A stretch of 37,939 nucleotides of DNA from Muribaculaceae bacterium (GTDB lineage: Bacteria; Bacteroidota; Bacteroidia; Bacteroidales; Muribaculaceae). The position numbers were made by a program, and so were the translations under genes. The notes beneath the pieces were generated by a model. It saw only the letters and a list, made by a program, of their open reading frames with translations. It made no database searches and was not told the origin of the DNA. Of the stretch, positions 11,266 to 36,610 are shown piece after piece. The DNA is taken from positions 1 to 37,939 of the forward strand of contig JAFZSO010000042.1 in the NCBI GenBank assembly GCA_017619355.1, given 5' to 3'. Within the stretch, counting starts at the first letter, position 1. Each line of letters begins with the position of its first letter.

Positions 11266-11754
11266 ATGAAAACACTACCTAAAACACTCAATGCCACCAT
11301 CGCGAAGCTCGTTCACGGTAACGCCGTGCGCGGCTACATCATCAACATCATTATAGCTCACAACGGCCGCATTTCCATTGCCGGTATCGCAAAGCTCATG
11401 TTCCGCTCCCGCGAGGCCATAGCGAAACACATCAGGGTGCTCGAAGCCATGAGAGTCATTCAGCATGTCGGAACCACGCGAAAAGGTTACTGGCGAGTAG
11501 TGGCACTTAATAAGGCCCAGCTCAACCAACTCATGGGCATCCCGCCTCAACTGGTCCAACGCTTCGATGGAATTCGACTCAAGCCACATTCAACGAAAGC
11601 ACTTGATAACTCCACGCAAGTACACAATAACTGCACGGAAGCACACAAACCAGCCCCGAAAGTACACAAACAGGCCTCGGAAGTACACAATGAATCCACG
11701 AAAGCACACAATGCCAATTTTGACGATTTCTTCACCGTATCGTTTAGTTATTAG
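11266..11754 (+). CDS. Small winged-helix DNA-binding protein with His-containing heptad tail
   Basis: 162 residues. Residues about 35-85 form a winged helix: SIAGIAKLM, recognition-helix candidate SREAIAKHIRVLEAMRVI, and the wing QHVGTTRKGYWRVV, which resembles the common Bacteroidota ending G.nK.GyWkV. From about residue 110 the chain is built of seven-residue units (NSTQVHN, NCTEAHK, PAPKVHK, QASEVHN, ESTKAHN), each with a His, encoded by 21-bp DNA repeats. The repeats give a polar tail with no known domain. The gene lies alone between 19-bp direct repeats and next to hydF, which reads toward it. A transcriptional regulator is likely, possibly autoregulatory through its own repeats, but no target is proven. 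The ATG at 11266 precedes the first recognisable helix. Confidence 0.7.
   Translation: MKTLPKTLNATIAKLVHGNAVRGYIINIIIAHNGRISIAGIAKLMFRSREAIAKHIRVLEAMRVIQHVGTTRKGYWRVVALNKAQLNQLMGIPPQLVQRFDGIRLKPHSTKALDNSTQVHNNCTEAHKPAPKVHKQASEVHNESTKAHNANFDDFFTVSFSY
11594..11719 (+). repeat. Six 21-bp tandem repeats inside the winged-helix gene
   Basis: Each unit starts CGNAAGYAC, usually followed by ACAA; units start at 11594, 11615, 11636, 11657, 11678 and 11699. The clearest core is CGAAAGTACACAAACA (11657-11672). A seventh partial unit, CGAAAGTACCAT, follows outside the gene at 11789-11800. Confidence 0.9.
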
Positions 11755-11925
11755 CGAGTTACATGATTTTTCAATGCCCAAAACCCCACGAAAGTACCAT
11801 GAAATTTCCCATAATCCACCCCCACGCCCTTCCCCACCGAGCGAAGCGAGCTCGCGAGTGGGAGTTTAGCCCCTTTGCGAGAATATTGTAGCGTAGTTGC
11901 ATGCCATCCGTGGGAATCTCCTTAA

Positions 11926-11944
11926 CTCCTCAACTCCGTAGAAA
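11926..11944 (+). repeat. 19-bp direct repeat, right copy
   Basis: Identical to 11124-11142, 802 bp away, just before the hydF 3' end. Confidence 0.8.
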
Positions 11945-11973
11945 TCTGCGCAGTCAAAAGCAAATCAGTGGTT

Positions 11974-13164
11974 TTAGCGGGGGAGGGTGATGTGAGGGAG
12001 GATGGCTTGGAGGTGGGCGATGGCGAGGCCGTAGTTGGTGATGGGGACGCCTTGCTGCTGGGCCTTGCGGATGCGCGAGAGCATCATGCGGCGGTTGAAC
12101 ATGCAGGCACCGCAATGGATGATGAGGTCGTAGGGTCGCAGGTCGGCGGGGAAGTCTTTGCCGGCACGGATGTCGAAGGTGACCGATTCGCCCACGCGCT
12201 GGCGTATGATGCGCGGAATCTTGACTCGCCCGATGTCTTCGCTTATGGGCACATGGGTGCATGCCTCGGCAATGAGTACGCGCGAGTGAGGTGTGAGGCG
12301 GTCGATGGCTCGAGCCCCTTGTGTGAGCACCTTCACATCGCCCTTATTGGCCGCCATGAGCACCGAGAAGGATGTGAGGCGTGACGCTTCAGGTTTCAGT
12401 TCATAGACCTGACGGAACACCTGCGAGTCGGTGATGATGAGAGCTGGCGGTTCCTTGAGGTTGTCGAGGCACTGCTTCATGTTGGCTGGGGTGCAACACA
12501 GGCTGATGCACTGTTTGTCGAGCAGGTCGCGCAGGGTCTGTACCTGCGGCAAGATGAGCCGACCTTTGGGTGCCTGCGGGTCTTGCGGCATGACGAGCAG
12601 CACGGTGTCACCTGGTTTGGCGAGCGAGCCCGTGAGGCTCAGCGCCTCGTCGCCGCCACCCGCCTGAATCATGGCTTGGCGAAGGCGCTCGATGCTCTGC
12701 GGGTCGGTGGTGCTGACGGGCACGGGGGTGAAGCCCAGTGCGCGTCGGGCCTGTTGCACTGCCGGGAGCATATTGCTGATGAGGTCGGTCTTGTTGAGCA
12801 CCAGCACCACAGGCACCTCAAGCTGTTGGAGACTGTCGAGCCACTGGCGTTCGAGGGAGAGGTCGTCGATCTGGTCAAAGACGAGCAGAGCCATGTCGGC
12901 CTGGTCGAGCACCTTGCGGGTGCGCTCGTTGCGCAGTTCGCCCACATTGCCCTCATCGTCGAAACCGGCCGTGTCGATGAGCAGGCATGGACCCAACGAA
13001 TGGATTTCCATGGCGCGGTTCACGGGGTCGGTGGTGGTGCCCGCCTCGGGCGAGACGATGGCCACTTGCTGCCCAGTGAGGGCATTGAGCAGCGAGGATT
13101 TACCCACATTGCGGCGGCCAAAGATGGCGATGTGTCGTCTGACGGATTGAGGAGCCTGATTCAT
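11974..13164 (-). CDS. hydF: [FeFe]-hydrogenase maturation GTPase HydF
   Basis: Scaffold and carrier that receives the diiron subcluster made by HydE and HydG and delivers it to HydA. 396 residues. G domain: P-loop GRRNVGKSS (16-24), switch region GTTTDPV (42-48), DTAG (64-67) and NKTD near 125. C-terminal cluster-binding domain: EACTHVP near 300 and HCGACMFNRR near 350, giving the C-x-H and H-C-x2-C ligand set of HydF. It is the last of the hydE-hydG-hydF set. A 152-nt gap full of simple repeats separates it from hydG, so transcript continuity is likely but not certain. Confidence 0.95.
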   Translation of the reverse strand: MNQAPQSVRRHIAIFGRRNVGKSSLLNALTGQQVAIVSPEAGTTTDPVNRAMEIHSLGPCLLIDTAGFDDEGNVGELRNERTRKVLDQADMALLVFDQIDDLSLERQWLDSLQQLEVPVVLVLNKTDLISNMLPAVQQARRALGFTPVPVSTTDPQSIERLRQAMIQAGGGDEALSLTGSLAKPGDTVLLVMPQDPQAPKGRLILPQVQTLRDLLDKQCISLCCTPANMKQCLDNLKEPPALIITDSQVFRQVYELKPEASRLTSFSVLMAANKGDVKVLTQGARAIDRLTPHSRVLIAEACTHVPISEDIGRVKIPRIIRQRVGESVTFDIRAGKDFPADLRPYDLIIHCGACMFNRRMMLSRIRKAQQQGVPITNYGLAIAHLQAILPHITLPR

Positions 13165-13168
13165 TTTT

Positions 13169-13215
13169 TAGTAGAATAGGGAATAGTAAAGTAGTAGAAT
13201 AGTGAATAGTAGACG
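13169..13215. repeat. 23-bp unit repeated twice in the hydG-hydF gap
   Basis: TAGTAGAATAG(G/T)GAATAGTA followed by AAG or GACG, at 13169-13191 and 13192-13215. It abuts the 8-bp family that starts at 13212. Confidence 0.75.
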
Positions 13216-13308
13216 AGCTAACAGGCTAACAAGCTAACAAGTAAACGGGCTGAGAGTTGTGGGCTGTGAACTCGTCCCTCGTCAGCTTGTTTGCTCGTTT
13301 GCTTGTGA
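13212..13308. repeat. Imperfect 8-bp repeats (GACGAGCT type) forming a loose inverted repeat
   Basis: Left arm units GACGAGCT, AACAGGCT, AACAAGCT, AACAAGTA and AACGGGCT (13212-13251). Right arm, about 13275-13308, carries the same words on the opposite strand (ACAAGCAAACGAGC on minus). The same unit is tandem at 31297-31360. Confidence 0.7.
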
Positions 13309-13316
13309 ACTCACAG

Positions 13317-14732
13317 TTAGAAGCGGAAGTCGCGTTCGCCATGCTCGATGTCGCAGAGTCGTTTTGCTGCCAGGTCACGAATGCGCTCGTTGGGGAGCAG
13401 ACCCAGTTCGCGGCGTATGAGTGCCTCGCCTTTCTCACGCGTGGTGGGCGAGGCGTAGTCCTCGAGATACTCCTTGAGGGTGATGAGCGCGTTAGGTGTG
13501 CAGCAGTGGCTGATTTTGCCCTGCTTGACGAGCGTCATGAAACGGTCACCGGTGCGGCCCTCACGGTAGCATGCCGTGCAGAAGCTGGGCAGGTAGTCGA
13601 TGTCGAGCAGCCAGGCGATGACCTCGTCGAGGGTACGCTGATCGCTCACATCAAACTGTGCGGTCTCGTCGTGGCGTTCCTCGGTGGTGTAGCCGCCCAC
13701 GCTGGTGCGCGAGCCGCCGCTGATTTGCGAGATGCCGAGGTCGAGCACGCGTTCACGCACCTTTTGTGACTCGCGGGTGGAGATGATCATGCCCGTGTAA
13801 GGTGCAGCAAGACGAATGATGGCCACGATGCGGCAGAAGATTTCGTCGGGGAGCACATCGGGGAAATTGTCGAGCGAGATGTCGTCGGCAGGGCAGATGC
13901 GCGGCACGCTGATGGTGTGCGGTCCCACGCCCATGCGGGCTTCGAGGTGCTCGGCATGCATGAGCAGACCCACGAGGTCGTAGCGGTAGGTGGTGAGTCC
14001 GTAGAGCACACCTATGCCCACATCGTCGCAGCCGCCTTCCATGGCACGGTCCATGGCCTCGGTGTGGTAGCAGTAGTCGCTCTTGGGGCCGGTGGGGTGC
14101 AGTTTCTCGTAGTTCTCCTTGTTGTAGGTTTCCTGGAACAGGATGTAGGTGCCGATACCGGCCTCCTTGAGGCGGCGATAGTTCTCGACGGTGGTGGCGG
14201 CGATATTCACATTCACGCGGCGGATGGCGCCGTTGCCCACCTTGGTATCATAGATGGTCTTGATTGACTCGAGCACATATTCGATGGGGTTGATGATGGG
14301 GTGCTCACCCGTCTCAAGGGCAAGTCGCTTGTGGCCCATCTTCTGCAGGGCGATGACCTCTTGGCGTATTTCGTCTTGCGTGAGTTTCTTGCGGGGGATG
14401 GTGCGGTTCTTGCCGTGATAGGGGCAATAGACGCATCCGTTAATGCAATAGTTGGAAAGGTAGAGCGGTGCAAAGAGCACGATTCGGTTGCCATAGAGTT
14501 TCTTCTTGACCTCGCGCGCCAGGTCTTCGTAGCGCTGCACCAGGTCGGGCTGGTCGCACTCAAGCAGCACGGCGGCTTCGCGGTGGGTAAGGCCTTTGCA
14601 GGTAGCGGCCTTGTTGATGATTTCTTCGATAAGAGCCCGGTTGCTACGGTTCTGTTCGGCGTAGTGTAGGGTCTCTAAGATTTCGCCGTGGTCAATGAAC
14701 TCTTCGGCATGGGGTGATTTAGGATTATACAT
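13317..14732 (-). CDS. hydG: Hydrogenase maturase HydG (radical SAM tyrosine lyase)
   Basis: Cleaves tyrosine to supply CO and CN- for the H-cluster diiron site. 471 residues, the usual length. Radical-SAM motif C96-x3-C100-x2-C103 in CINGCVYC. The C-terminal auxiliary-cluster motif is complete: CTACYREGRTGDRFM from residue 385 and HCCTPNALITLKEYLEDYA near 409. The TIM-barrel stretch ALETGEHP and the motif GGSRTSVGGY, typical of HydG/ThiH, are also seen. The start at 14732 lies 12 nt after the hydE stop. The C-terminal Cys motif separates it from ThiH. Confidence 0.96.
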   Translation of the reverse strand: MYNPKSPHAEEFIDHGEILETLHYAEQNRSNRALIEEIINKAATCKGLTHREAAVLLECDQPDLVQRYEDLAREVKKKLYGNRIVLFAPLYLSNYCINGCVYCPYHGKNRTIPRKKLTQDEIRQEVIALQKMGHKRLALETGEHPIINPIEYVLESIKTIYDTKVGNGAIRRVNVNIAATTVENYRRLKEAGIGTYILFQETYNKENYEKLHPTGPKSDYCYHTEAMDRAMEGGCDDVGIGVLYGLTTYRYDLVGLLMHAEHLEARMGVGPHTISVPRICPADDISLDNFPDVLPDEIFCRIVAIIRLAAPYTGMIISTRESQKVRERVLDLGISQISGGSRTSVGGYTTEERHDETAQFDVSDQRTLDEVIAWLLDIDYLPSFCTACYREGRTGDRFMTLVKQGKISHCCTPNALITLKEYLEDYASPTTREKGEALIRRELGLLPNERIRDLAAKRLCDIEHGERDFRF

Positions 14733-14744
14733 AGTATGGTTGAA

Positions 14745-15806
14745 TTAAAGGTTGTTCATAAATGGAGGATTATTGGGTGCGTCGCCACGGCCCCAGTCGA
14801 TGTGGTAGCCGATGGTGGCGAGTTGCTGTTCGAGTTGATGGATACCTTCGGCCGCCTCGGCATCGGTCACCGCCTTGCCGTCGTAGAGGCTGTACTGGTT
14901 GCGCACAGGGGCGGGAGAGAGGTTGGGCATGACCACATTGGCGCCAGCCTTGATGCCCATGAGCCGGCCCTCGGGGTGAATGGTGTTGAGGGCGGTGGTG
15001 GAGGGCAGGAGTACCTTGGGGAACATGAGCCTGAAGATGGCGTAGAGCCTGGTGGTGAGGTCGGCGCTGCCGGCGGGATGATGGCCCAGAGGTGTGTCGT
15101 GATGCGGCACGAAGGGGCCGAGGCCAATCATGTGCGGCTGGAACTGCTCGATGAACTGGATATCTTCGACCAGATGCCCGACCGTTTGCCCAGGACTGCC
15201 CACCATGATGCCGGTGCCCACTTGATAGCCGAGCTGCTTGAGTGCCTCGAGGCATTCAAGCCTTGTGGTGAGCGACATGGTGGCGGGATGCAGGGTGGCG
15301 TAGTGTGCAGTGTTGTGCGTCTCGTGACGCAACAGGTAGCGGTTGGCTCCAGCCTGTAGCCAGCGCTTGTAGGTCTCATAGCTCCATTCACCCAGCGAGA
15401 GGGTGATGGCGCACTCGGGCCACGATGCCCTGATGTCAGCCACCAGTTGCTCGATCCATTGAGCCTTGTCGCGAGGCAGTTCGCCGCCTTGCAGCACAAA
15501 GGTGCGGAAGCCTAGGCTGTAACCTTGCTGGCAGCATTGCATTACCTCGTCGTGCGTGAGGGTGTAGCGGGCAACATGGGTGTTGCTCTTGCGAATGCCG
15601 CAGTACAGGCAGTCGTTGCGGCACACATTGGTGACTTCTACGAGTCCGCGCACGAAGATGCCGTGCCCGAAGTTGTCGACAGCCACCTGCTGTGCCTGCT
15701 GGCGCAGATAGGCAATGTCATCGCCATCAGGGGCGGTGAGCAGAGCCGCATAGTCGTGCGCCTGGAGGTGGTGCGTGTCACGCAATATGTCGACGAGCCG
15801 TTTCAT
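14745..15806 (-). CDS. hydE: Hydrogenase maturase HydE (radical SAM)
   Basis: Radical SAM enzyme acting on the HydG product to build the diiron unit with its dithiolate bridge. 353 residues. Radical-SAM motif C62-x3-C66-x2-C69 in VCRNDCLYCGI, with BioB/HydE-like barrel motifs (VLQGGELP, HETHNTAHYATLHP, GTGIMVGSPGQT, IGLGPFVPHHDTPL). The N-terminal residues before the barrel fit the family. It leads the maturation operon behind a strong promoter (15840-15871) and is followed 12 nt later by hydG. Without its neighbours it could be mistaken for a pyrrolysine/biotin-type radical SAM enzyme. Confidence 0.95.
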   Translation of the reverse strand: MKRLVDILRDTHHLQAHDYAALLTAPDGDDIAYLRQQAQQVAVDNFGHGIFVRGLVEVTNVCRNDCLYCGIRKSNTHVARYTLTHDEVMQCCQQGYSLGFRTFVLQGGELPRDKAQWIEQLVADIRASWPECAITLSLGEWSYETYKRWLQAGANRYLLRHETHNTAHYATLHPATMSLTTRLECLEALKQLGYQVGTGIMVGSPGQTVGHLVEDIQFIEQFQPHMIGLGPFVPHHDTPLGHHPAGSADLTTRLYAIFRLMFPKVLLPSTTALNTIHPEGRLMGIKAGANVVMPNLSPAPVRNQYSLYDGKAVTDAEAAEGIHQLEQQLATIGYHIDWGRGDAPNNPPFMNNL

Positions 15807-15839
15807 TTTTCGGTATTCGTGAGATTACCAGTTAACCCA

Positions 15840-15871
15840 CAAAGTTACGAATAACGGCTCATAAAAGCAAG
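15840..15871 (-). promoter_or_regulatory. Promoter of hydEGF
   Basis: Minus strand CTTG, 20 nt, TAACTTTG. The -7 box is an exact TAnnTTTG and the spacing equals the other good promoters here. The ATG is 33 nt downstream. Confidence 0.8.
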
Positions 15872-15945
15872 CGAATCGCCGTTTTTCAAACAACGCTTTT
15901 TGGGCGGTGAAAAAGACGGATGGTGGAAAAAACGGGAAAAATGCG

Positions 15946-15953
15946 TAAATTTG
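15946..15953 (+). promoter_or_regulatory. -7 element of the UDG-family gene, near-leaderless
   Basis: TAAATTTG ends only 8 nt before the ATG at 15962, so the mRNA would have almost no leader. The preceding bases GGGAAAAATGCG also precede the -7 box at 22167. Confidence 0.6.
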
Positions 15954-15961
15954 CAGTGAAA

Positions 15962-16555
15962 ATGAAACACAAAGAACCGCAAATAGAGACGCATCCGTTC
16001 GAGCCGTTTTTGCCTGATGGGGCTCGGGTGCTGATGCTGGGCACATTCCCGCCTAAACCCGAACGATGGTCGATGGAGTTCTATTATCCTAACCGTCAGA
16101 ATGATATGTGGCGCTTGGCAGGTCTCATCTTCTTTGGCGACAAGCATCATTTCTGGCTTGAGCAGGAGAAACGCTTCGATTTGCCACGGCTCAAGGAGTT
16201 TCTCACCGAGCAGCGCATAGCCTTGTATGACACGGCGATGCGTGTGCGGCGGCTGAAGGACAATGCCAGCGACAAGTTTCTGGACATTGTGGAGACCATA
16301 GACCTGGACCGCTTTTTTGCTTTGCGGCCCACCATCAGCGCGATTGTGACGGCTGGCGAGAAGGCCACTGGTGTGATTGCCGAGAAGGCTGGGGTGGAGA
16401 TACCCAAGATGGGTGAGAGCGTGCAGTGTGTCTATCATGGCCATCGGTTCATACTCTACCGCATGCCGTCGTCGTCGCGGGCTTATCCGTTGGCGCTGGA
16501 GAAGAAAGCCGAGGCCTATGGTGCGATGTTTCGTGCGCTGGGTTATGAAGTGTGA
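15962..16555 (+). CDS. Uracil-DNA glycosylase superfamily protein (HDG/Mug-like)
   Basis: Likely base-excision repair enzyme removing deaminated bases. 197 residues from ATG 15962, chosen because a -7 element lies at 15946-15953; an ATG 14 codons upstream would sit ahead of the transcription start. The UDG-superfamily motif 1 equivalent is LMLGTFPPKPERWSMEFYY, followed by NDMWRLAGLIF. The terminal motif MPSSSRAYP matches the family's second active-site loop (xPSSSxA). The Asn/Asp usually expected in motif 1 is not obvious, as in family 6 (hypoxanthine-DNA glycosylase) relatives. Substrate is therefore uncertain. It is divergent from hydE and reads toward the DedA gene, 41 nt on. Confidence 0.78.
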   Translation: MKHKEPQIETHPFEPFLPDGARVLMLGTFPPKPERWSMEFYYPNRQNDMWRLAGLIFFGDKHHFWLEQEKRFDLPRLKEFLTEQRIALYDTAMRVRRLKDNASDKFLDIVETIDLDRFFALRPTISAIVTAGEKATGVIAEKAGVEIPKMGESVQCVYHGHRFILYRMPSSSRAYPLALEKKAEAYGAMFRALGYEV

Positions 16556-16566
16556 GTTTTTTATAT

Positions 16567-16574
16567 TATCTTTG
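16567..16574 (+). promoter_or_regulatory. -7 element of the DedA gene
   Basis: TATCTTTG, exact TAnnTTTG, 22 nt before the ATG at 16597. No good -33 box. Confidence 0.5.
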
Positions 16575-16596
16575 TAGGACAAAACAAAAAAGACTG

Positions 16597-17400
16597 ATGA
16601 ATCGAAACAAAACTCTATATACAGCTCTGCTGGTGGTAGCGATGATGGCCGTGGCCATGACAGCCATGGCGCAAGCCGCATCGCCCGATGCTGCTGCCGT
16701 TGCTGAACCGTCTTGGGCCGAGAACCTCTACAACTGGTTCAAGGAGCACATGAACTACTGGACCATCATCCTGCTTATGGCCATCGAGAGTTCGATTGTG
16801 CCGCTGCCCAGCGAGGTAGTGGTGCCTCCTGCCGCCTACTTCTCGCTGCAGGCCAACAGCAACCTTGACTTCTGGCTGGTGATTGTGACAGCGACGGTGG
16901 GCGCCTATGTGGGTTCTGCCATCAATTATGGGCTGTCGATGCTCATAGGGCGGCCCATCTTCTACAAGTTTGCCGACAGCAAGGTGGGCCATGCGCTCAT
17001 GCTCAACCGCGAGAAACTGGAGCGTGCCGAGCAATACTTCCAGCGCAAAGGCTCCATCTCCATCTTCTTTGGCCGACTGCTGCCTGCGGTGCGTCACCTG
17101 ATCTCGATACCGGCGGGCTTGTCGAAGATGAACTTTGGCACCTTCAGCCTGTTCACGGCCCTGGGCGCGGGCATCTGGAATGTGGTGCTGGCGAGCCTGG
17201 GTTACCTGCTCTACAGGGTTGTGCCCGACGACAGTCAGCTCTTTGTGCAGCTTGAGCACTACAGCCACTACCTGAAGATAGCGGGCTTTGTGCTGCTTGG
17301 CGGTGCAGTGGCCTACATCGTATATAAGGTGTATAAGAACAAGAAAAACAAAAAGCAACCTACAGAGGTGAGCGATAATCAACAAGAACCTGAAACATAA
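16597..17400 (+). CDS. DedA family membrane protein
   Basis: 267 residues. The start at 16597 lies just behind a -7 box; an upstream in-frame ATG at 16552 overlaps the previous stop and precedes that promoter. The first about 25 residues look like a signal sequence (TALLVVAMMAVAMTAMAQA), an unusual addition for DedA proteins. The family core follows: IESSIVPLPSEVVVPPAAYF (re-entrant loop), GAYVGSAINYGLSMLIGR, and FFGRLLPAVRHLISIPAGLSKM, with the arginine/proline motif of DedA undecaprenyl-phosphate or lipid flippases. Four to five membrane segments and a Lys-rich C-terminal tail are seen. It is followed 13 nt later by rpe, so the two are co-transcribed. Confidence 0.88.
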   Translation: MNRNKTLYTALLVVAMMAVAMTAMAQAASPDAAAVAEPSWAENLYNWFKEHMNYWTIILLMAIESSIVPLPSEVVVPPAAYFSLQANSNLDFWLVIVTATVGAYVGSAINYGLSMLIGRPIFYKFADSKVGHALMLNREKLERAEQYFQRKGSISIFFGRLLPAVRHLISIPAGLSKMNFGTFSLFTALGAGIWNVVLASLGYLLYRVVPDDSQLFVQLEHYSHYLKIAGFVLLGGAVAYIVYKVYKNKKNKKQPTEVSDNQQEPET

Positions 17401-17413
17401 AAACTGAAAAGCT

Positions 17414-18058
17414 ATGAAAGTATCTCCGTCTCTTCTTTCGGCCGACTTCGGCCACATGGCCCGCGACATTGAAATGGTGAACAATAGCGCTGCGGCATTG
17501 CTCCACATCGATGTGATGGACGGCGTGTTTGTGCCCAACATCTCGTTTGGATTTCCCGTGATGAAGTATGTGCAGCAGCACAGCACCAAACCTCTTGATG
17601 TGCACCTCATGATTGTGGAGCCGCAGAAGTTCGTGAACGAGGTGCGCGACTGTGGTGCCGAGTACATGACCGTGCATCTGGAGGCCTGCACGCACCTGAA
17701 CCGCGTGGTGCAGCAGATTCATGCGGCGGGCATGAAGGCGGGTGTAGCGCTGAATCCGCACACGCCAGTGTGCCTGTTGCGCGACATCATTGCCGATATT
17801 GAACTGGTGCTGCTCATGAGCGTGAATCCGGGCTTCGGAGGCCAGAAGTTCATTGAGGGCACATTGCGAAAGGTGAAGGAGACGCGTGCTCTCATCGCCG
17901 AGATGGGTTCGCATGCCGAGATCGAGATAGATGGCGGCGTGAACGATGTGACTGGCAAACAGCTTGCTGAAGCGGGCGCCGACATTGTGGTGGCTGGCAA
18001 CTATGTGTTCAAGGCACAGCAACCCGCCGATGCCATCGCACTTTTAAACAGCCTGTAA
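17414..18058 (+). CDS. rpe: Ribulose-phosphate 3-epimerase
   Basis: Interconverts ribulose 5-phosphate and xylulose 5-phosphate in the non-oxidative pentose phosphate pathway, in the cytosol. 214 residues, family length. Conserved motifs run in order along the TIM barrel: PSLLSADFGHM (start of strand 1), HIDVMDGVFVPNISFG (metal His/Asp), DVHLMI, VHLEAC, GVALNPHTP, VLLMSVNPGFGGQKF (phosphate loop), IEIDGGVN and ADIVVAGNYVF. All expected metal ligands (His, Asp, His, Asp) are present. It follows the DedA gene by 13 nt. No terminator was seen before the tRNA promoter. Confidence 0.97.
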   Translation: MKVSPSLLSADFGHMARDIEMVNNSAAALLHIDVMDGVFVPNISFGFPVMKYVQQHSTKPLDVHLMIVEPQKFVNEVRDCGAEYMTVHLEACTHLNRVVQQIHAAGMKAGVALNPHTPVCLLRDIIADIELVLLMSVNPGFGGQKFIEGTLRKVKETRALIAEMGSHAEIEIDGGVNDVTGKQLAEAGADIVVAGNYVFKAQQPADAIALLNSL

Positions 18059-29035: not shown

Positions 29036-29046
29036 AAACTTTGTGG

Positions 29047-29239: not shown

Positions 29240-31297
29240 ATGAAAAAGATATTTTTGATTCTGTTGATTAGCGTGTGTGGCTTAATGGCGCAGGGAGCCA
29301 CCAAGATATATGTGTGTGGTACGAAGATAACCGGGAGTACCAGCTTCTCGACAAGTGGCGGTACGGTGAATTATGACAACAACACGCGGACGCTGACCAT
29401 CACAAATGTGGACTACACGAAAACAGGCAGCAGCAACAACGGCATCAGTGTGGATGAGGTTCCTGGGTCGTTGACCATCAATCTGGTAAGCACAACTTTC
29501 GACATTGGTGATGCCGATGCAGTGCTATGCAAAGATAAAAACCATAATAAAACGACTATCAATGTGAGCGGCAATTGCTATTTACGGTGTCGCAGTAAGA
29601 ACCATGCGGGCCTCAAGCTTCAGGACGCAGATGTAACTGTTCAAGGAAGCGGAGGCTTGTACGTTAGTCATACGGCGTACGGCAATGGCGTAAAGGGCGG
29701 ATCTGGCACCGAGAATTTGACGCTGCAAATCAAGACATGCGGTATTTATTCGGGCAATACCAGATTGCACAATCTTAATAAGGTTTCAATCATACCCACC
29801 GGTAACTTCGGCAACGATGATTATTCCACGAAAATCATCCTTGATTATTATAATTCAAATACTGGCTATGCAGCAGCATCGAATGTGGGTTCATGGTATG
29901 CTGGCACAAATGTGAGAATAGTAAAGCCGATAGCCAACTACAATGCTGACTTAAACAACTTGTCAAGTTTTAGCGAAGAGGTCATCATCTCTGATGAACA
30001 GGTGGTGGCACTATTGACCTACTCGTATTTCCCGGATGCAAACTTCCGCAACTATTTGCTGGGACTCTATCCCAAGGGCTATATCAGCCGCAGCGATGTG
30101 AATGCAAGGACATCGCTGACTGTCTCGGGCAAATACATATCTAATTTGAGTGGAATCGAATATTTCAGCAAGCTCACCTATTTGGATTGCAGAGCTAACC
30201 AACTTACCAAACTGCCTACCCTGCCAACAACATTAGAGACACTTCTTTGCTCGTCGAACCACTTTGAGACATTACACATAAATAATTATGCTCACCTGAA
30301 AAAACTGGATATCAGTAACAATACCCGCTTAACTGATCTCTATTGCGGCGACAATGCGTTGACAGACCTCAATGTGGCCAATTGCCCGGCAATGACCACA
30401 CTTAGTTGTGGCAACAATCAGCTGACAGATTTTAGCTCGCTTCCCGCATCATTGCAGACTCTCAACTGCTCGGGCAACAAGTTCAGCACACTTATGCTTG
30501 TTGGATTAAGCGCTATGAGCTGGCTTAATGTAAGTTATAATCAATATCTTACATCATTACATTGTTACGACGGTGTTTTGAAAACCCTTAAAGTGGAAGG
30601 TTGTTCGGCATTGAAAACGATTGACTGTCACAACAACCAGCTCACCACTTTTGTCGTCAGGGAGCCTCACTCGCTGCAATATCTGGACTGCTCAAACAAC
30701 AAACTAAGCGGTGCATACTCTTTCTCAAGCATAACCACATTGAAGATGCTCAACATCAGTAACAACCCGAACCTGACAGTACTCTATTGCTTTGAAAATG
30801 CACTCACAAGCCTCAATGTGGCAGGCTGCTCGTCGTTGAACACCCTTATTTGCTCCCATAATAATCTCACCGGGCTCTCGTTGCAGGGGTTGAACTCTCT
30901 TGAAAGCCTGGAGATAAATGCCAACCAAATCAAGGAAGCAGCCATGGGGACTCTTGTCAACAGTCTGCGTACAATCCCTGTTGGCAACCTCGGTGAATTC
31001 AAGGTTCAAGGCGGTTCTGGCGAAGGTAATGTGATAACCCAAGCGCAAGTCAATACAGCCCGAGCCAAACGCTGGATACCCAAGAAGTATGTGAACAACA
31101 ATTGGACTGAAATTCCCTCAAGTGTTGGCGATGTGAACGGCGACGGGAAGGTGAATGTGAGTGATGTGACCACGCTGGTGAACATGATTCTGGGCGTGAT
31201 TCCCAAAGATGAGACCCGTGCCGACATCAACGGCGACGAGAAGGTGAACGTGAGTGATGTGACCGCGCTGGTGAACCTGATTCTGGGTATTCAGTAG
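29240..31297 (+). CDS. Secreted leucine-rich-repeat protein with two-repeat dockerin
   Basis: 685 residues. Signal peptide MKKIFLILLISVCGLMAQGA. Residues about 22-255 form a beta-helix-like domain with alternating short strands. A linker, YFPDANFRNYLLGLYPKGYI (about 265), opens a run of about twelve LRRs of the type L-x2-L-x-C-x2-N-x-L-T (LDCRANQLT, LYCGDNALT, LSCGNNQLT, IDCHNNQLT, LICSHNNLT). The C-terminus is a complete two-repeat dockerin: GDVNGDGKVNVSDVTTLVNM and ADINGDEKVNVSDVTALVNL, with all calcium-loop Asp/Asn. A large duplication is visible within the LRRs. It has a paralogue at 36976. Likely surface-exposed, binding protein or glycan; no cohesin partner is in the window. Confidence 0.88.
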   Translation: MKKIFLILLISVCGLMAQGATKIYVCGTKITGSTSFSTSGGTVNYDNNTRTLTITNVDYTKTGSSNNGISVDEVPGSLTINLVSTTFDIGDADAVLCKDKNHNKTTINVSGNCYLRCRSKNHAGLKLQDADVTVQGSGGLYVSHTAYGNGVKGGSGTENLTLQIKTCGIYSGNTRLHNLNKVSIIPTGNFGNDDYSTKIILDYYNSNTGYAAASNVGSWYAGTNVRIVKPIANYNADLNNLSSFSEEVIISDEQVVALLTYSYFPDANFRNYLLGLYPKGYISRSDVNARTSLTVSGKYISNLSGIEYFSKLTYLDCRANQLTKLPTLPTTLETLLCSSNHFETLHINNYAHLKKLDISNNTRLTDLYCGDNALTDLNVANCPAMTTLSCGNNQLTDFSSLPASLQTLNCSGNKFSTLMLVGLSAMSWLNVSYNQYLTSLHCYDGVLKTLKVEGCSALKTIDCHNNQLTTFVVREPHSLQYLDCSNNKLSGAYSFSSITTLKMLNISNNPNLTVLYCFENALTSLNVAGCSSLNTLICSHNNLTGLSLQGLNSLESLEINANQIKEAAMGTLVNSLRTIPVGNLGEFKVQGGSGEGNVITQAQVNTARAKRWIPKKYVNNNWTEIPSSVGDVNGDGKVNVSDVTTLVNMILGVIPKDETRADINGDEKVNVSDVTALVNLILGIQ

Positions 31298-31360
31298 ACG
31301 AGCTAACAAGCAAACGAGCTGACGAGCTGACGAGCTGACAAGCTAACGAGTAGACTAGTA
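31297..31360. repeat. Eight-unit 8-bp tandem repeat (GACGAGCT)
   Basis: Units every 8 bp from 31297: GACGAGCT, AACAAGCA, AACGAGCT, GACGAGCT, GACGAGCT, GACAAGCT, AACGAGTA, GACTAGTA. It starts on the last base of the LRR gene stop codon. Confidence 0.85.
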
Positions 31361-31377
31361 GTTTGTCTCGATAATCT

Positions 31378-31411
31378 CTTCGGGTAAATCGTAAACTGCG
31401 TAGCAAAAATA
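31378..31411 (-). pseudogene. Fossil copy of the mutS2 promoter and start
   Basis: 34 nt match 29021-29054 at 29 of 34 positions in the same orientation. The copy keeps a -7 box (TATTTTTG) and the codons for IYPK, but the ATG is ACG. Only the start region is recognisable. Confidence 0.65.
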
Positions 31412-31473
31412 GCGAGATCTTTAAAAATATACAAAATGGAAAAACCTGCGGGGCGATATTGGGAATAAAGTAG

Positions 31474-31481
31474 TATCTTTG
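31474..31481 (+). promoter_or_regulatory. -7 element of the lipoprotein gene
   Basis: TATCTTTG, exact TAnnTTTG, 21 nt before the ATG at 31503; it excludes the longer start at 31479. Confidence 0.5.
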
Positions 31482-31502
31482 TCACAATCGAAAGATGCTT
31501 AT

Positions 31503-32450
31503 ATGAGAATGAAAAAGAGCGTGCTCATATTGCTGATGTTGCTCCCGTGCCTGCTTAGTGGCTGTTTTACGGGAGTTGAAGGCACCAAGAAGGTGACGGA
31601 AAAGGACGTTGCCAAGGTGCTGCAACAGCCATCGGGCGGTGGCTCGGAGGCAGGGCAGCAGGTGCTGCTGCTTGCTCGGCCCGACTCGGTGGCTACATGG
31701 CGTGTGGGCAAGCGCTTCTATGTGTGTGACGACCAGGCCCGGCTTATGTTCTTGCCGAGTGCCGAGTATAGTTCCGACACCCTGAAGCTGGGCGGCAAGT
31801 ATGTGAGTTATGTGGGTTACACCACAGGCAGCCTGCTCGACAACAACAGCCTTGTGACGCTGGAATTTACCGATGGCGTTCACACTTATCGTTACCGTAC
31901 AGGCAAGGAACTTGCCGACCTGCACCCGGGCTATGGTATTCCTTTCTTTATTGAGGAAGACCTGGTGGAGTGTGCCCGCCAGCAACTGGAAGGGAAGGCG
32001 TTCTATATCAAGACTCGCATCTGGTATACGCCCGACAGCGGTGTGATGAAAGATGGCCGGCAGTTCATTCCCGTGAAAATCTTGCAGGTGGAGCCTGGAA
32101 ACAAGGTGTATGCTCTGAAGGTGACCTTTGAGGCGCAGGACAACGGCGAGCGAGCGATGATGTGGGTGGCCGATGACACGAAGGCGTTGCGTCAGCGCAG
32201 TTTTGATGCACTGTTCTCGGTTAGTGATGTGCGCAAGAACTATCCTCATATAACCAGCGATGTGTGGAACCGCATTGTGCATGGCACCGTTCAGGAGGAT
32301 ATGACCAAGGAAGAATGCCAACTGTCGTTAGGTGCACCCAAGAGCATCAACCGGTTGCCCGACCAGAACGGACTCAGGGAATACTGGTACTATGATGGCG
32401 GCGTTTACCTCTATTTTGAAGATGGACTATTGAAGACCTACAGGAAGTGA
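31503..32450 (+). CDS. Lipoprotein with BamE/SmpA-like C-terminal segment
   Basis: 315 residues from ATG 31503 (or 313 from 31509). A lipoprotein signal (VLILLMLLPCLLSGC) places it on the outer or inner membrane. The middle has beta patterns and no domain I recognise. The end (MTKEECQLSLGAPKSINRLP ... REYWYYDGGVYLYFEDGLLK) has the form of the BamE/SmpA/OmlA fold: a helix start with 'T-x-E-E-x2-x2-L-G-x-P', then aromatic strands. It would fit an outer-membrane-associated role, but it is not a canonical BamE. The stop overlaps the start region of the MBL gene (5 nt), so the two are translationally linked. Confidence 0.65.
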   Translation: MRMKKSVLILLMLLPCLLSGCFTGVEGTKKVTEKDVAKVLQQPSGGGSEAGQQVLLLARPDSVATWRVGKRFYVCDDQARLMFLPSAEYSSDTLKLGGKYVSYVGYTTGSLLDNNSLVTLEFTDGVHTYRYRTGKELADLHPGYGIPFFIEEDLVECARQQLEGKAFYIKTRIWYTPDSGVMKDGRQFIPVKILQVEPGNKVYALKVTFEAQDNGERAMMWVADDTKALRQRSFDALFSVSDVRKNYPHITSDVWNRIVHGTVQEDMTKEECQLSLGAPKSINRLPDQNGLREYWYYDGGVYLYFEDGLLKTYRK

Positions 32451-32455
32451 ACAAT

Positions 32456-33232
32456 ATGCTTGAGATAGAATTTTTAGGAACGGGGACATCGACGGGGGTG
32501 CCGCAAATCAGGTGCGACTGCGAGGTGTGCCAGTCGAGCGACCCGCACGACAAGCGGTTGCGCTGCAGTGCCGTTGTGCGTTACAAGGGGCTGAACCTGC
32601 TGCTGGACTGCAGTCCTGATTTCAGGCAGCAGATGCTCACGGCAAGCAACAACGACCTGGATGCGCTGCTGGTGACTCACATCCACTACGACCATGTGGG
32701 CGGCATCGACGACTTGCGCGCCTACTGCAAGGACGGGGACTTCCCGATTTATGCCCGCCAGGATGTGATTGACGACCTGCACGCGCGGTTGCCATACTGC
32801 TTTGCAGCCCGCCCCTATATGGGTGTTCCCAGGCTTGCTGTGACGCCCATTGTGGAGAATGTGCCGTTCAGCATTGGTGGGGTGGAGATTATGCCCTTGC
32901 CTGTGATGCACTATAGGCTGCCTATCCTGGGCTTCAAGATTGGTCCGCTTGCCTATATCACTGACTGCAAGACGATTGACGACAAAGTGGTGGAGCAGTT
33001 GCACCATGTGCCGCTGCTGGTGATCAACGCTTTGAGGCAAAAAGAGCATCCCGCGCACATGTCGCTCAGTGAGACGCTTGATGTCATTGACAAGATTCGA
33101 CCGGGTCGAGCCATTCTCATACACATGAGTCACGACATGGGGCTTCATGCCGAGGTGAACGAGATGTTGCCTGCAGGCGTGGAACTGGCTCACGACGGGA
33201 TGATAGTGCAGGTTGAAGAAGAGAATGGATAA
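32456..33232 (+). CDS. MBL-fold metallo-hydrolase (PhnP-like)
   Basis: 258 residues from ATG 32456; a GTG three codons earlier overlaps the upstream stop and is an alternative. The opening LGTGTSTGVPQIRCDCEVC carries Cys residues as in PhnP-type cyclic phosphodiesterases. The metallo-beta-lactamase motif is THIHYDHVGG (His75, His77, Asp79, His80). Further metal ligands are VMHYRLPILGF and YITDCKTI, and ILIHMSHDMG closes the fold. This group (phosphoribosyl cyclic phosphodiesterase or RNase Z-like) is widespread and often mis-assigned; no phn genes are nearby, so the substrate stays open. It is co-transcribed with the lipoprotein. Confidence 0.85.
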   Translation: MLEIEFLGTGTSTGVPQIRCDCEVCQSSDPHDKRLRCSAVVRYKGLNLLLDCSPDFRQQMLTASNNDLDALLVTHIHYDHVGGIDDLRAYCKDGDFPIYARQDVIDDLHARLPYCFAARPYMGVPRLAVTPIVENVPFSIGGVEIMPLPVMHYRLPILGFKIGPLAYITDCKTIDDKVVEQLHHVPLLVINALRQKEHPAHMSLSETLDVIDKIRPGRAILIHMSHDMGLHAEVNEMLPAGVELAHDGMIVQVEEENG

Positions 33233-33238
33233 AGTTTA

Positions 33239-33270
33239 TTTGCATATCAGGTGAAACATCTCTAATTTTG
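33239..33270 (+). promoter_or_regulatory. Promoter of the small Cys/His-rich protein, near-leaderless
   Basis: TTTG, 20 nt, TAATTTTG; perfect boxes. The -7 box ends 7 nt before the ATG at 33278. Confidence 0.8.
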
Positions 33271-33277
33271 CACCGAA

Positions 33278-33628
33278 ATGCAGACGAAACGCAAAGAAAT
33301 CATATCGTCGTGGTTGCTGCTGTGGGTGTTTGTGCCCATGGTGCTGCTGTCGTCGGTTCATGTCCATGAGGCAGAGACGGTGGTGGATCTGGATTGTGCC
33401 GAGTGTGTGAGCCACACGCAGCACACGGGTCACCTGACGATATACAAAGCCAGCGTGGATGATTGCGTGCTGTGCCGTTTCCTGGGTCAGGAATTTGTAA
33501 CGGCCATGAAGACGCTGATGCCCTATGTGTTATGTTGTGTGGCATTGGTGCTGGTGCCGGTTGCCGCAGCTCACGGCCGTTTCGTTGAGTCTGCCATCAA
33601 TAGGCGGGGTCCTCCCGTTGTTTGCTGA
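33278..33628 (+). CDS. Small Cys/His-rich membrane protein upstream of a TonB receptor
   Basis: 116 residues. Two hydrophobic segments (IISSWLLLWVFVPMVLLSS, residues about 8-26, and LMPYVLCCVALVLVPVAA, about 80-97) flank a short loop rich in metal-ligand residues: VHVHE, DCAEC, SHTQHTGH and DDCVLC. It resembles the small His/Cys proteins (DUF2946-like) that stand next to metal-responsive TonB receptors, but I cannot assign a family firmly. The ATG at 33278 directly follows a perfect promoter. It likely shares its transcript with the TonB receptor, 128 nt on. Possible role: metal or heme sensing or handling for that receptor; this is inference. Confidence 0.6.
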   Translation: MQTKRKEIISSWLLLWVFVPMVLLSSVHVHEAETVVDLDCAECVSHTQHTGHLTIYKASVDDCVLCRFLGQEFVTAMKTLMPYVLCCVALVLVPVAAAHGRFVESAINRRGPPVVC

Positions 33629-33668
33629 ACAAGCAGGAATCTCTAATCCCATAAGGTTTGGACCTGTT

Positions 33669-33716
33669 GCCCGCAACTTCGCTGTTGGCGGGCGGTGGTT
33701 GCATGATTGTGCAGCC
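33669..33716 (+). other. Two-hairpin leader before the TonB receptor
   Basis: Hairpin 1: GCCCGCAAC with GTT-G-GCGGGC (33669-33677 with 33684-33693, one bulged G). Hairpin 2: GGTTGCA with TGCAGCC (33697-33703 with 33710-33716). No T-run follows. It may be a regulatory leader. Confidence 0.5.
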
Positions 33717-33756
33717 GTCAGAATGAGGAATATAACAAGCAAACAATCAACGAAAA

Positions 33757-33798
33757 ATGAAATTGAATAAACTTATGATGAAATTGAATAAACTTATG
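33757..33798 (+). repeat. Perfect 21-bp tandem duplication at the receptor start
   Basis: 33757-33777 equals 33778-33798; each copy begins and ends with ATG in frame. Confidence 0.95.
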
Positions 33799-35895
33799 AT
33801 AAGTGTGCTGGCCCTTGCCAGCATAGCACCTGCCATGGCACAAGAGAAAGGGCAGGAGATTGACTCGACCGATGTATTTTATCGTCACTTGAACCTCAAA
33901 GAGGTGGTGGTGACAGGAGCCACTGGCGACACGCGGCTGAAGAACTCGTCGGCACCGGTGAAGATGCTCACAGGCCGAGAGATGCAGACGCTCTCGTCGA
34001 CCAACATTGTGGACGCCATTGCCTCACAGCCGGGTGTGTCGCAAATCACTACTGGCAGCGGCATTGCGAAGCCGGTGATTCGTGGTCTGGGCTATAACCG
34101 CATTGTGGTGGTGAACGACGGCATCAGGCAAGAAGGGCAGCAGTGGGGCGACGAGCACGGCATTGAGGTTGACGGCCAGAGCGTGGGCTCTGTCGAGATA
34201 CTGAAAGGTCCTGCGAGCCTTGTGTATGGCTCTGATGCCATGGCAGGCGTGATCAAGTTCAACAGCTATCCAGTGGTACCGTTAGGCAAGATCAGGCTGA
34301 ATCTCACGAGCGAGTATCAGACCAATAACGGCCTCTTTGACTATTCGCTGAACTTTGCAGGGAACAAGCAGGGCATCCTGTGGGACCTGCGTTACAGCGA
34401 GAAGATGGCGCATGAATACAAGAACAGGTGTGACGGTTATGTGCCTAACTCCCAGTTCCGTGAGCGTGCCCTGCGTGGTATGCTTGGCCTGAATCGCAGT
34501 TGGGGCAAATCGCAGCTCGTGGTTTCGCATTACCACATCACTCCCAGCATCATCGAGGGCGAGCGTGATGCGGCGACGGGCGAACTGGAAGTGCCTTATG
34601 AGAAACTGAAAACCTACAAGCATGGCATGCCTTACCAGCAGGTGTATCACAGCAAGGCTGTGCTGAACAACACCTTCTATGTGGGCGAGGACCGGCTGAA
34701 TGTGCTGCTGGGCTATCAGCAGAACCGGCGTCAGGAGTTTGAGGAGGCCGAGAGTCCTGATGACTATGCGCTCTACTTCAAGCTGCACACGGTGAATTAT
34801 AATGTGAACTACATCACGCGTGACCTGGGTGGCTGGAAGTTCACCGGCGGTGTGAACGGCATGTGGCAGCACTCGCAGAACTTGGGCGAGGAGTATCTCA
34901 TACCCGAATATAAACTGACTGATGTGGGCGTCTTCGGCACTGCTACCAGAGAGGTGGGCAAATGGGTGCTGAATGGCGGTCTGCGATTCGACCATCGTCA
35001 CCTGAACAGTTACGAACTGATTGAGGATGAGGCGGTGAGATTTGCTGCCATCAAGAAGGATTTTAATGGTGTGACCGGTAGCGTGGGTGCCGTTTTTCAT
35101 GCCACTGATGCGCTGAATTTGAAACTGAATGTATCGCGCGGCTATCGTGCACCCAATGTGAGCGAACTGGCTTCGAATGGCGTGCACGAAGGTTCGGTTC
35201 GCTATGAGTTGGGCAATGCTGGACTTAAGTCCGAATACAGTTGGCAGTTTGACCTGTCGACCGACTATGCGAGCCGTTACTTCAGTGCCGAGGTGGCGCT
35301 GTTCTGCAACCGCATAGACAATTACATTTATCTGCACCGCGTGAACGAGGTGATTGAGGAGGGTTATATGACCTATCGCTTCGACAGTGGCGATGCCCGG
35401 TTGCTGGGCTGTGAGGTGAGCCTTGATGTGCATCCCATCCACTCGCTGCACCTGGGTACCTCGTTCAGTATGGTAGATGCCGTGCAACTGCATCAGCCTG
35501 AGGAGAGCAAGTACTTGCCGTTTACGCCTGCTCCCCGCTGGCAAGTGGATGCGAAGTATGAGATGAACCATCATGGTAAGTTGTTCTGCAACAGCTTTAT
35601 ATCTATTGGGCTTGACTATAATTTCAAGCAGAATCATTATTATAAGGCTGATGACACCGAGACTGCCACTCCTGCCTATGCGCTGCTCAATGCCATGGTG
35701 GGAACTGACCTGAATGTGAGGGGCAAGCATGTGGCATCGGTGTATGTGATAGGCAGCAACCTGACTGATAAGGTGTATCAGAATCATTTGAACCGACTGA
35801 AGTATGCTCCTGTGAACCCTGTGACGGGACTGCAGGGCGTGAGCAACATGGGCCGGAACATTACCTTTAGGGTGGTGGTGCCACTGGAGTTTTGA
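33757..35895 (+). CDS. TonB-dependent outer-membrane receptor (not SusC-type)
   Basis: 712 residues from ATG 33757, or 705 from 33778: the first 21 bp are exactly duplicated (MKLNKLM twice), giving two start options before ISVLALASIAPAMA. No CarboxypepD_reg domain precedes the plug, so it is not a SusC-like glycan porin. The plug starts LKEVVVTGATG, continues IVDAIASQPGVSQITTGSG, and ends SVEILKGPASLVYGSDAMAG. A 22-strand barrel follows, with a TBDR C-terminus ending in aromatic Phe (RVVVPLEF). It probably transports a small ligand such as a metal complex, heme or vitamin. The last codons (TTTTGA) overlap an intergenic repeat. Substrate unproven; BtuB is one possibility. Confidence 0.85.
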   Translation: MKLNKLMMKLNKLMISVLALASIAPAMAQEKGQEIDSTDVFYRHLNLKEVVVTGATGDTRLKNSSAPVKMLTGREMQTLSSTNIVDAIASQPGVSQITTGSGIAKPVIRGLGYNRIVVVNDGIRQEGQQWGDEHGIEVDGQSVGSVEILKGPASLVYGSDAMAGVIKFNSYPVVPLGKIRLNLTSEYQTNNGLFDYSLNFAGNKQGILWDLRYSEKMAHEYKNRCDGYVPNSQFRERALRGMLGLNRSWGKSQLVVSHYHITPSIIEGERDAATGELEVPYEKLKTYKHGMPYQQVYHSKAVLNNTFYVGEDRLNVLLGYQQNRRQEFEEAESPDDYALYFKLHTVNYNVNYITRDLGGWKFTGGVNGMWQHSQNLGEEYLIPEYKLTDVGVFGTATREVGKWVLNGGLRFDHRHLNSYELIEDEAVRFAAIKKDFNGVTGSVGAVFHATDALNLKLNVSRGYRAPNVSELASNGVHEGSVRYELGNAGLKSEYSWQFDLSTDYASRYFSAEVALFCNRIDNYIYLHRVNEVIEEGYMTYRFDSGDARLLGCEVSLDVHPIHSLHLGTSFSMVDAVQLHQPEESKYLPFTPAPRWQVDAKYEMNHHGKLFCNSFISIGLDYNFKQNHYYKADDTETATPAYALLNAMVGTDLNVRGKHVASVYVIGSNLTDKVYQNHLNRLKYAPVNPVTGLQGVSNMGRNITFRVVVPLEF

Positions 35896-36217
35896 CGACG
35901 CGGGATGGCTTCATGAATTAATCAGACAATTGGGTCGAGTGGTGCTGCCTATGGCATCGCACGCCAGCATAGCTGACTTGTGCTGCACCATCTCCCCGAG
36001 CTGGCGGTTGATGACAATGGAGGACAATGATTCCTCTCGCAAAGCCTGTGGCACACAACTTTTTTAAACGCGAATGATACGAATTTAGCCAATTTCGCTA
36101 ACGCGGGGAGTTCTCACACAAAGGGGCTACACGCTAAGCCGCGCGGTGAAACGCGCGGTTTTTTTTGACGACGTGGGGAATTATAAATCAGACAATTGAT
36201 GACAATGGAGGACAATG
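35890..36217. repeat. Duplicated GACAAT-type segments after the receptor gene
   Basis: TTTTGACGACG(C/T)GGG at 35890-35904 and 36163-36177. AATCAGACAATTG at 35920-35932 and again ending at 36198. A 22-bp perfect copy at 36008-36029 and 36196-36217 (GATGACAATGGAGGACAATG core). The first copy is split by about 75 bp of unrelated DNA. A matching motif lies in opposite orientation at 11206-11250. Confidence 0.75.
36139..36166 (+). terminator. Terminator-like hairpin
   Basis: CCGCGCG-gtgaaa-CGCGCGG (36139-36158) followed by eight T. It is 244 nt after the receptor stop, so it could end that transcript. Confidence 0.75.
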
Positions 36218-36279
36218 TTTTTCATTGATGACAATTGCTGTTATCTCTCGCAAAAAGCACGAAAAGGAGCTTCAAAAAG

Positions 36280-36300
36280 CCGCGCAAGCGCGGTATTTTT
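36280..36300 (+). terminator. Second terminator-like hairpin
   Basis: CCGCG-caag-CGCGG (36280-36293), then TATTTTT. Weaker than the one at 36139 and similar in word content. Confidence 0.55.
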
Positions 36301-36324
36301 TCAATGACGGCGCGGGAGATGGAC

Positions 36325-36397
36325 GCCCTGCGGGCTTAAAATTATAATGGCAAGCCATTAAAATTTATTCATTAAAAATTTCAACGGCTTCGCCGTT
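36325..36397. repeat. Cluster of three short hairpins
   Basis: GCCC-tgc-GGGC (36325-36335), TAATGGC-aa-GCCATTA (36345-36360) and AACGGC-ttc-GCCGTT (36383-36397). The last word is a frequent hairpin type in Bacteroidales intergenic DNA. Confidence 0.6.
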
Positions 36398-36550
36398 AAC
36401 AATGCTGCCGCTGGATTTTTGGGGATGGGTGGGAAAGCGTGGAAAGCGTGGAAGGATGGGATAGGTGGGAAAAATGGGAAAAATGCGGTTGTGTTTCATA
36501 ACATATTGATTTTAAGTAGATTGATGGTTTTGATATTATACTGCTTTCGT

Positions 36551-36610
36551 TAAAAGTTTGTATACCATCGAAAGTGTTTGTGTACTATCGTTAAAGTTCA
36601 TGTACTACCG
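36551..36610 (-). repeat. Three 20-bp repeats matching the winged-helix gene repeats
   Basis: Units at 36551-36570, 36571-36590 and 36591-36610. The middle unit read on the minus strand begins CGATAGTACACAAACA, differing at one position from CGAAAGTACACAAACA in the winged-helix gene. Confidence 0.85.

Follow-up and report, generated by a model that had tools for sequence, protein, structure and literature searches.

Dispersed direct-repeat arrays in Muribaculaceae genomes and a small winged-helix gene that may form part of the same element

The subject of this report is a 37,939-bp stretch of a Muribaculaceae genome (contig JAFZSO010000042.1 of assembly GCA_017619355.1; hereafter the window), in which a gene for a small winged helix-turn-helix (wHTH) protein carries 21-bp direct repeats (units) in its 3′ coding part, and units of the same kind stand on the minus strand of an intergenic region 25 kb away. 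Our comparison of this genome with its congeners suggests, with a probability that we would put at roughly 0.55, that both belong to one dispersed family, in which full copies encode the wHTH protein and the other copies are shortened, the unit is conserved as DNA, and the protein putatively binds its own units and is titrated or recruited by them.

In the arrangement that we propose, every copy would be polar, running from a promoter-like box through either a short stretch or the wHTH gene into an array of 20–23-bp direct units and ending in TTTCCC runs. In the full copies (types A and B) the array would lie within the coding sequence of a small wHTH protein, and the intergenic arrays would be shortened copies lacking the wHTH part (as seen at one locus and presumed for the rest). 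The heptads encoded by the units would then be a tolerated linker leading from the wHTH domain to, in type A, a conserved C-terminal tail. Each wHTH protein may bind its own unit type head to tail, which is the natural guess because the unit shows no evident dyad, and gene and sites would make up a self-contained pair. The dispersed arrays may titrate or recruit the protein, with feedback on its expression or on the spread of the element.

Units in the window and across the genome

The 21-bp period that the initial annotation had reported inside the wHTH open reading frame (ORF) was recovered by our scan, with five of the six units (at 11615, 11636, 11657, 11678 and 11699) fitting CGAWAGTACACAAAC at no more than 3 mismatches and the first, at 11594, degenerate. 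The same core was found on the minus strand at 36551–36610 in three 20-bp units, including the match over 15 of 16 bases noted originally, and the unit at 36576–36590 is an exact CGAWAGTACACAAAC. Chance had been judged an improbable source, and rightly so: the window holds 9 matches at up to 3 mismatches, compared with a mean of 1.39 (standard deviation 1.14, maximum 5) over 100 shuffles.

In the labels used here, the window is contig C55 of genome G000 (74 contigs, 2.63 Mb, 89% complete), and G015, G063, G090 and G081 are congeners (101 congeneric genomes were compared). A loose search of the whole genome with CGAWAGTACACAAAC (up to 3 mismatches) did no better than its reversed control (81 vs 122 matches), and exact patterns were therefore used for the counts. 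Two unit types make up the intergenic arrays of G000, type A (CGAWAGYACACAA) and type B (CGAWNGCRGTAYAAW), the second being present at many intergenic loci. Exact CGAWAGYACACAA occurs 26 times in G000 (once for the reversed control), 27 times in G063, twice in G015 and 0–2 times in each of the other 58 of the 61 genomes examined (out of 101), with the reversed control giving 0–2 per genome. The corresponding counts for CGAWNGCRGTAYAAW are 60 in G063, 19 in G000, 4 in G090 (3 of them in its gene) and 1 in G015 (in its gene), with 0–2 in each of the other 97 of the 101 genomes and 0–3 for the reversed control. These exact-pattern controls, together with the window shuffles, rule out a chance origin of the unit copies.

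A unit expression was run over the window and 80 stretches fetched from four genomes, and it picked out 71 intergenic arrays (33 in G000, 34 in G063, 3 in G015 and 1 in G090); scattered copies elsewhere had been suspected at the outset. Spacing of the units is mostly 20–23 bp. A query with the intergenic piece of the window returned 42 places in G000 at E≤10; this number counts the piece itself, and the weakest places are at chance level. A profile built on 20 arrays gave at least 52 matches in G000, 50 in G063, 8 in G090 and 6 in G015, partly by construction, as the training arrays were taken from these same four genomes; of the remaining congeners, G081 gave a single marginal match (E 0.0012) and the other 96 gave no match. 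Outside the genes and the training set there were three matches in G015 (C26, and C13 twice) and seven in G090 (C178, C207, C39, C285, C266, C60 and C271), and the sequence was inspected for most of these ten (C39 and C271 are not among them).

A contig end is no more than a few hundred bases away from several arrays, and some stand at the very end (C35, C70, C3 and C60 of G063; C1, C5, C7, C13 and C20 of G000), as if the element breaks the assembly. A search for orthologous arrays between species by their flanking genes yielded several loci sharing one neighbour gene, which permits only a weak conclusion, and orthology was not adopted; among the gap alignments listed, most did not line up, and the arrays of L228 and L240 point opposite ways.

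Two related genes with two related units

The window protein is assigned to the wHTH proteins by family and fold searches. Its best Pfam match is HTH_24 (E=6e-4, with a score under the family cut-off), and all its wHTH matches are sub-threshold. An AlphaFold2 model (7 relatives in the alignment) shows helices at residues 6–31, 38–45 and 49–61 and strands at 65–68 and 75–78, with a predicted local distance difference test score (pLDDT) of 77–89 in the block of residues 11–80. The whole model has a mean pLDDT of 60 and a predicted template modelling score of 0.50; the part beyond about residue 101 is modelled as disordered, and the unit-encoded part falls to a pLDDT of about 25–36. The top solved folds in Foldseek are of the MarR/ArsR type (best E 4.1e-3, none at 0.001 or below).

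In a protein search of the 101 congeners, the type A gene with its array turned up in 3 (G000; G015, at 78%; G063, with two copies at 77% and 65%) and a second wHTH gene, type B, in 4 (G000:C36, G015:C2, G063:C5 and G090:C161). The type B genes end in 21-bp units of their own, which are the second unit type of the intergenic arrays. Units thus lie within the 3′ coding part of four type A and four type B copies, although the type B gene of G000 has only a short array, as a palindromic insertion in the third unit ends the frame there and more units follow beyond it. The two paralogues thus differ in the unit found at their own 3′ end, the two units being related but distinct, which is an argument for the proposed arrangement.

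The genomes with arrays are also the genomes with the genes, a few related gut bacteria that make up 4 of the 101 congeners (G000, G063, G090 and G015), and the lack of co-occurrence that the initial annotation had named as refuting was not encountered. By MutS2 the nearest relatives of G000 are G015 (82%) and G063 (81%), the next full-length match being at 75% (G090 gave no MutS2 match), and because of this the four are probably one lineage and not four independent cases. Beyond the genus, a scan of 84,980 species genomes (a set that may omit close records of the window) returned 5 loci in 3 assemblies, titled as metagenome-assembled genomes of uncultured Bacteroidales or Muribaculaceae. A more sensitive profile search extended the list by 19 genomes with weaker matches (E 1e-9 to 1e-3), which cover parts of the protein and lie mostly in longer frames; two of these longer proteins (488 and 337 amino acids, both congeneric) were inspected and have the similar domain at the C-terminus. 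A phage or plasmid origin was considered and rejected, as tblastn with the first 109 amino acids gave no match among 50,697 records of phages and 72,556 of plasmids, and no relative was confirmed in viral contigs.

Polar architecture of the copies

The proposed order of parts is seen most directly in 59 intergenic arrays with 320 bp available on both sides. The box TATYTTYGCY stands upstream in the same sense in 38 of them and in the opposite sense in none, with 0 and 4, respectively, downstream. Downstream, 48 arrays have at least two TTTCCC in the same sense and none has them in the opposite sense, as compared with 3 and 2 upstream. Among 2806 control windows taken from these stretches without removing the elements, 64 had the box and 74 the TTTCCC. 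The box is likewise found ahead of three genes, type A in G000 and G015 and type B in G000. In the aligned boxes TGTGT..TT.CCATTGC lies about 21 bases before TTATCTTTGCC, an arrangement that resembles the consensus of Bacteroidetes −33/−7 promoters and may be such a promoter.

The clearest shortened copy is G063:C10:16243, where the type B start MKTQPKTCYAAIARLIDGNRNR comes after the box and leads directly into FATAEDLEWEEAIDRGT, from the pre-array stretch of the type B genes, and on into the array; judged from its sequence, it is a type B gene with the wHTH part deleted. Another locus, G000:C17, has an array and a type A-like C-terminal tail without a wHTH part. The earlier alternative that the intergenic units are remains of a second such gene is thereby upheld at these two places, and for the other arrays it stays a presumption.

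Some further observations concern the copies themselves. At G090:C60:1909–1960 (L279 1850–2165) a box and a start codon are followed by an open frame of 105 amino acids (without a Pfam match at E≤0.01) that passes through the units in a further peptide reading, RLWYKIPRLWYELSRIRYN. Palindromic pieces of 82–84 bp, resembling repetitive extragenic palindromic (REP) sequences, are found at the same point of the unit, directly after CGAA; 12 of 14 left ends follow ACGAA, a share that is biased because the stretches were chosen around arrays. Upstream of the type A gene of G015 (L067 86–1105, minus strand) lies a gene for a protein of 339 amino acids with an MPDHVHG (HVH) motif; by eye it resembles a REP-type transposase, a lead left unproved as no Pfam match was obtained at E≤0.001.

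The unit appears to be conserved as DNA rather than as peptide

The strongest indication of what is conserved comes from the reading frame. Three of the type A copies read their units as ACG AAA GTA CAC (T-K-V-H), units 3 and 4 of copy b in G063 are read as CGA AAG TAC ACA (R-K-Y-T) in the same ORF, and type B units are read as GAT TGC GGT ACA and similar (x-C-G-T). The family as a whole thus reads the homologous unit in three frames, and a single ORF, that of copy b in G063, uses two of these and is still open despite the shift. It is because of these three frames that a peptide-level role of the heptads was rejected, in agreement with the initial suspicion that they are a by-product of a DNA-level repeat.

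Codon comparison of the type A genes points the same way. Between G000 and G015 the first 104 codons divide into 68 identical, 22 synonymous and 14 changed, and the 41 array codons into 22, 3 and 16. Differences at fourfold sites, before the array vs within it, amount to 14/44 vs 1/13 for G000–G015 (Fisher 0.15), 17/43 vs 0/11 for G000–G063 copy a (0.011) and 8/46 vs 2/15 for G015–G063 copy a (1.0). The frame changes are, as far as such sequence comparison goes, the stronger of the two arguments, and the repeat seems to be kept as DNA and not for the encoded protein.

Alternative explanations

The most serious competitor, to which we grant a minor though real share of the probability, is passive capture: a dispersed intergenic repeat would have invaded an ancestral wHTH gene at its 3′ end, been tolerated there as a disordered linker and been inherited by both paralogues, the protein not binding it. 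The modelled disorder of the array region and the open frame of G063 copy b despite its shifted units both agree with such a history, as does the fact that another simple repeat of G000, TCGGAGAGC, also enters a 3′ coding end (8056–8087). A mere intruder would not be expected, however, to have the promoter-like box and the TTTCCC tail in common with the genes, nor to be missing, as it is by the array profile, from 96 of the 97 genomes that lack the genes. Moreover, in a scan of 10 of the 33 ORFs that lie over arrays none had a Pfam match at E≤0.01, and no other recognisable array-bearing gene came to light among them.

A rather improbable alternative is an initiator–iteron pair similar to phage lambda O and its origin, in which the wHTH protein would open or mark the arrays and the dispersed copies would be origin-like or decoys. 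Iterons within the initiator's coding sequence are the lambda layout, as far as the available text on lambda describes it, and the PHROGs database gave the window protein weak matches to 'replication initiation O-like' families (E 0.0012 and 0.0023), with phrog_678 matched at E≤0.01 by 5 of 7 family members. Yet other wHTH families score alike or better, all 7 members also match phrog_12156 (labelled DNA helicase), some match families labelled transcriptional regulator, and the window protein has no O family and no Rep family among its Pfam matches at E≤1. The presence of a similar domain at the end of the two larger congeneric proteins implies that the domain is common, and both the absence from the phage and plasmid records and the lack of a partner gene recognisable by eye beside the gene speak against an initiator. 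With respect to the DNA, words resembling a DnaA box follow 8 of 68 intergenic arrays as compared with 35 of 3862 windows, though the array copies share descent, and the A+T content after these 68 arrays is raised only modestly (0.55–0.64 in the first seven 10-bp bins vs 0.507 in the background).

An ordinary network of operators or chromosome-organising sites of a wHTH regulator would also consist of many intergenic direct-repeat sites, a kind that BldC binds according to the available text on that protein. We consider it very unlikely. The orientation of 51 arrays (those outside long frames with both neighbours present, gene loci included) relative to the neighbouring ORFs is even (15/12/12/12), the median distances to the neighbouring genes are 482 and 304 bp, and the spacing between units varies. 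In addition, the TonB-type gene before the intergenic array of the window has orthologues in G063 (85%), G090 (83%) and G015 (82%), and in none of the three does a unit occur within 1.5 kb on either side; in G063 another long frame begins about 160 bp after the orthologue. This absence, which points to turnover of the arrays, also counts in favour of the proposed dispersed family.

Finally, a function of the heptads as protein, e.g. metal binding through the repeated His (present in 5 of 6 heptads in G000, 6 of 6 in G015 and 6 of 6 in G063 copy a), is largely refuted by the frame changes, given the CGTxN-like heptads of the type B genes and the partly RKYTEIP heptads of G063 copy b, and we give it hardly any credence.

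The proposed family with a self-binding protein has difficulties of its own. The A and B genes are homologous, and their paired units could stem from a single ancestral capture. G090 has type A units (L150) and no type A gene was found in this 77% complete genome, and G015 has both genes and few arrays. The box, found in 39 of the 64 intergenic arrays for which 320 bp upstream alone was required, is absent from the other 25, and of 76 arrays 13 are enclosed by a long open frame (at least 150 amino acids, or 60 at the end of a stretch). The fourfold-site conservation within the array is significant in only one of the three pairs. Also, the family and fold searches made assign the ORF of the full copies to a wHTH protein, and no transposase was found.

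Features of the window

The type A gene sits between two ORF groups (3704–7902 and 11974–15806) that by eye resemble an iron hydrogenase set and its maturation proteins. A stretch with a degenerate unit and TTTCCC similar to that 3′ of the window gene is also found 3′ of the type A gene of G015. A 9-bp repeat like TCGGAGRRC, present beside the intergenic array at 36611–36668, is found again in ORF 8022–9020, where it occupies the 3′ coding end (8056–8087).

Table 1. Coordinates of the element parts in the window, and REP-like pieces at other loci
Feature	Position	Strand	Basis or remark
Promoter-like box TGTGTGCAATTACCAT ... TATCTTCGCC upstream of type A gene	11152–11199 (TATCTTCGCC 11189–11198)	+	
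Type A wHTH gene, 162 amino acids	11266–11754	+	ORF listing, Pfam, congeneric relatives
wHTH domain, residues ~6–101	11281–11568	+	AlphaFold2, Foldseek
Array of six 21-bp type A units within coding sequence, first degenerate	11594–11719	+	Repeat scan, shuffles
C-terminal tail NFDDFFTVSFSY	11716–11751	+	DDFFTVS kept in the four type A copies compared
Degenerate unit ACGAAAGTACCATGAAA (11788–11804) and TTTCCC, 3′ of stop codon	11788–11810	+	
TTTCCC-type 9-bp runs, tail of intergenic element	36428–36485	−	
Segment between array and tail	36486–36533	−	Recurs in other copies (genome search with the intergenic piece)
Type B unit CGAAAGCAGTATAAT, adjoining the type A units	36535–36549	−	
Three 20-bp type A units	36551–36614	−	Units at 36556, 36576, 36596
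9-bp repeats TCGGAGGAC	36611–36668		Also beside several other arrays
Promoter-like box of intergenic element, TATTTTTGCC variant	36718–36768	−	
REP-like pieces	L209 2956; L228 2891; L232 2981		
REP-like pieces	L221 3143; L227 3112; L231 3001	−	

Implications and comparison with known systems

If the protein does bind its units, a gene and its sites would pass on together in a single stretch of DNA, with two diverged pairs in one genome, and this would offer a natural system for following the joint change of a DNA-binding protein and its sites. The family would also be a dispersed one in which the full copies code for a binding protein instead of a transposase, and this raises the question of how it spreads. 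The more general idea of a hitherto undescribed class of elements without a transposase, in which a wHTH gene and its own array spread along with shortened copies as transcribed arrays over the chromosome, the protein counts or controls its own element through them and the paralogous pairs of protein and unit co-diverge, is more speculative, and we regard it as doubtful. The dispersed arrays could also be decoys against a replicon that uses the same type of initiator.

Among known systems, networks of transcription-factor operators differ from the present arrays, which have no consistent placement relative to neighbouring genes (51 arrays). BldC and other direct-repeat binders resemble the present system in combining a small DNA-binding protein with direct repeats (binding in our case being putative), while a self-encoded array is not mentioned in the available text on BldC. 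Iteron plasmids have in common with it the head-to-tail units and a possible titration logic; in contrast, the arrays here are dispersed over a chromosome, and the absence of Rep families among the Pfam matches is a further difference. Miniature inverted-repeat transposable elements (MITEs) are likewise short, present in many copies between genes and similar in their flanking parts to fuller copies, and the internal deletion derivative (one clear case, G063:C10:16243, and presumably the rest) adds to the likeness, but the fuller copy here encodes a wHTH protein and not a transposase.

The closest precedent is the O gene of phage lambda, which holds its own iterons, and the statement in the initial annotation that no system of this kind had been described has to be withdrawn to that extent. 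The available text of PMC4488673 and PMC5043065 places the lambda origin, made up of an A+T-rich stretch and four iterons of 19 bp, within the O gene and reports that extra copies of the origin on a plasmid stop lambda replication. As in lambda, a gene for a DNA-binding protein contains within its coding sequence several units (in lambda four of ~19 bp) that are the protein's own sites, a role that is putative for the units here. Unlike the lambda sites, which are described as inverted repeats binding O dimers, the present units have no evident dyad, and they differ further in their many chromosomal array copies, in the two paralogue/unit pairs and in having no recognised partner gene. Our literature search recognised no description of this element. 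Overall, an array within its own gene is precedented by lambda O, and what is new is its dispersal, the two pairs of paralogue and unit, and an organisation without a transposase.

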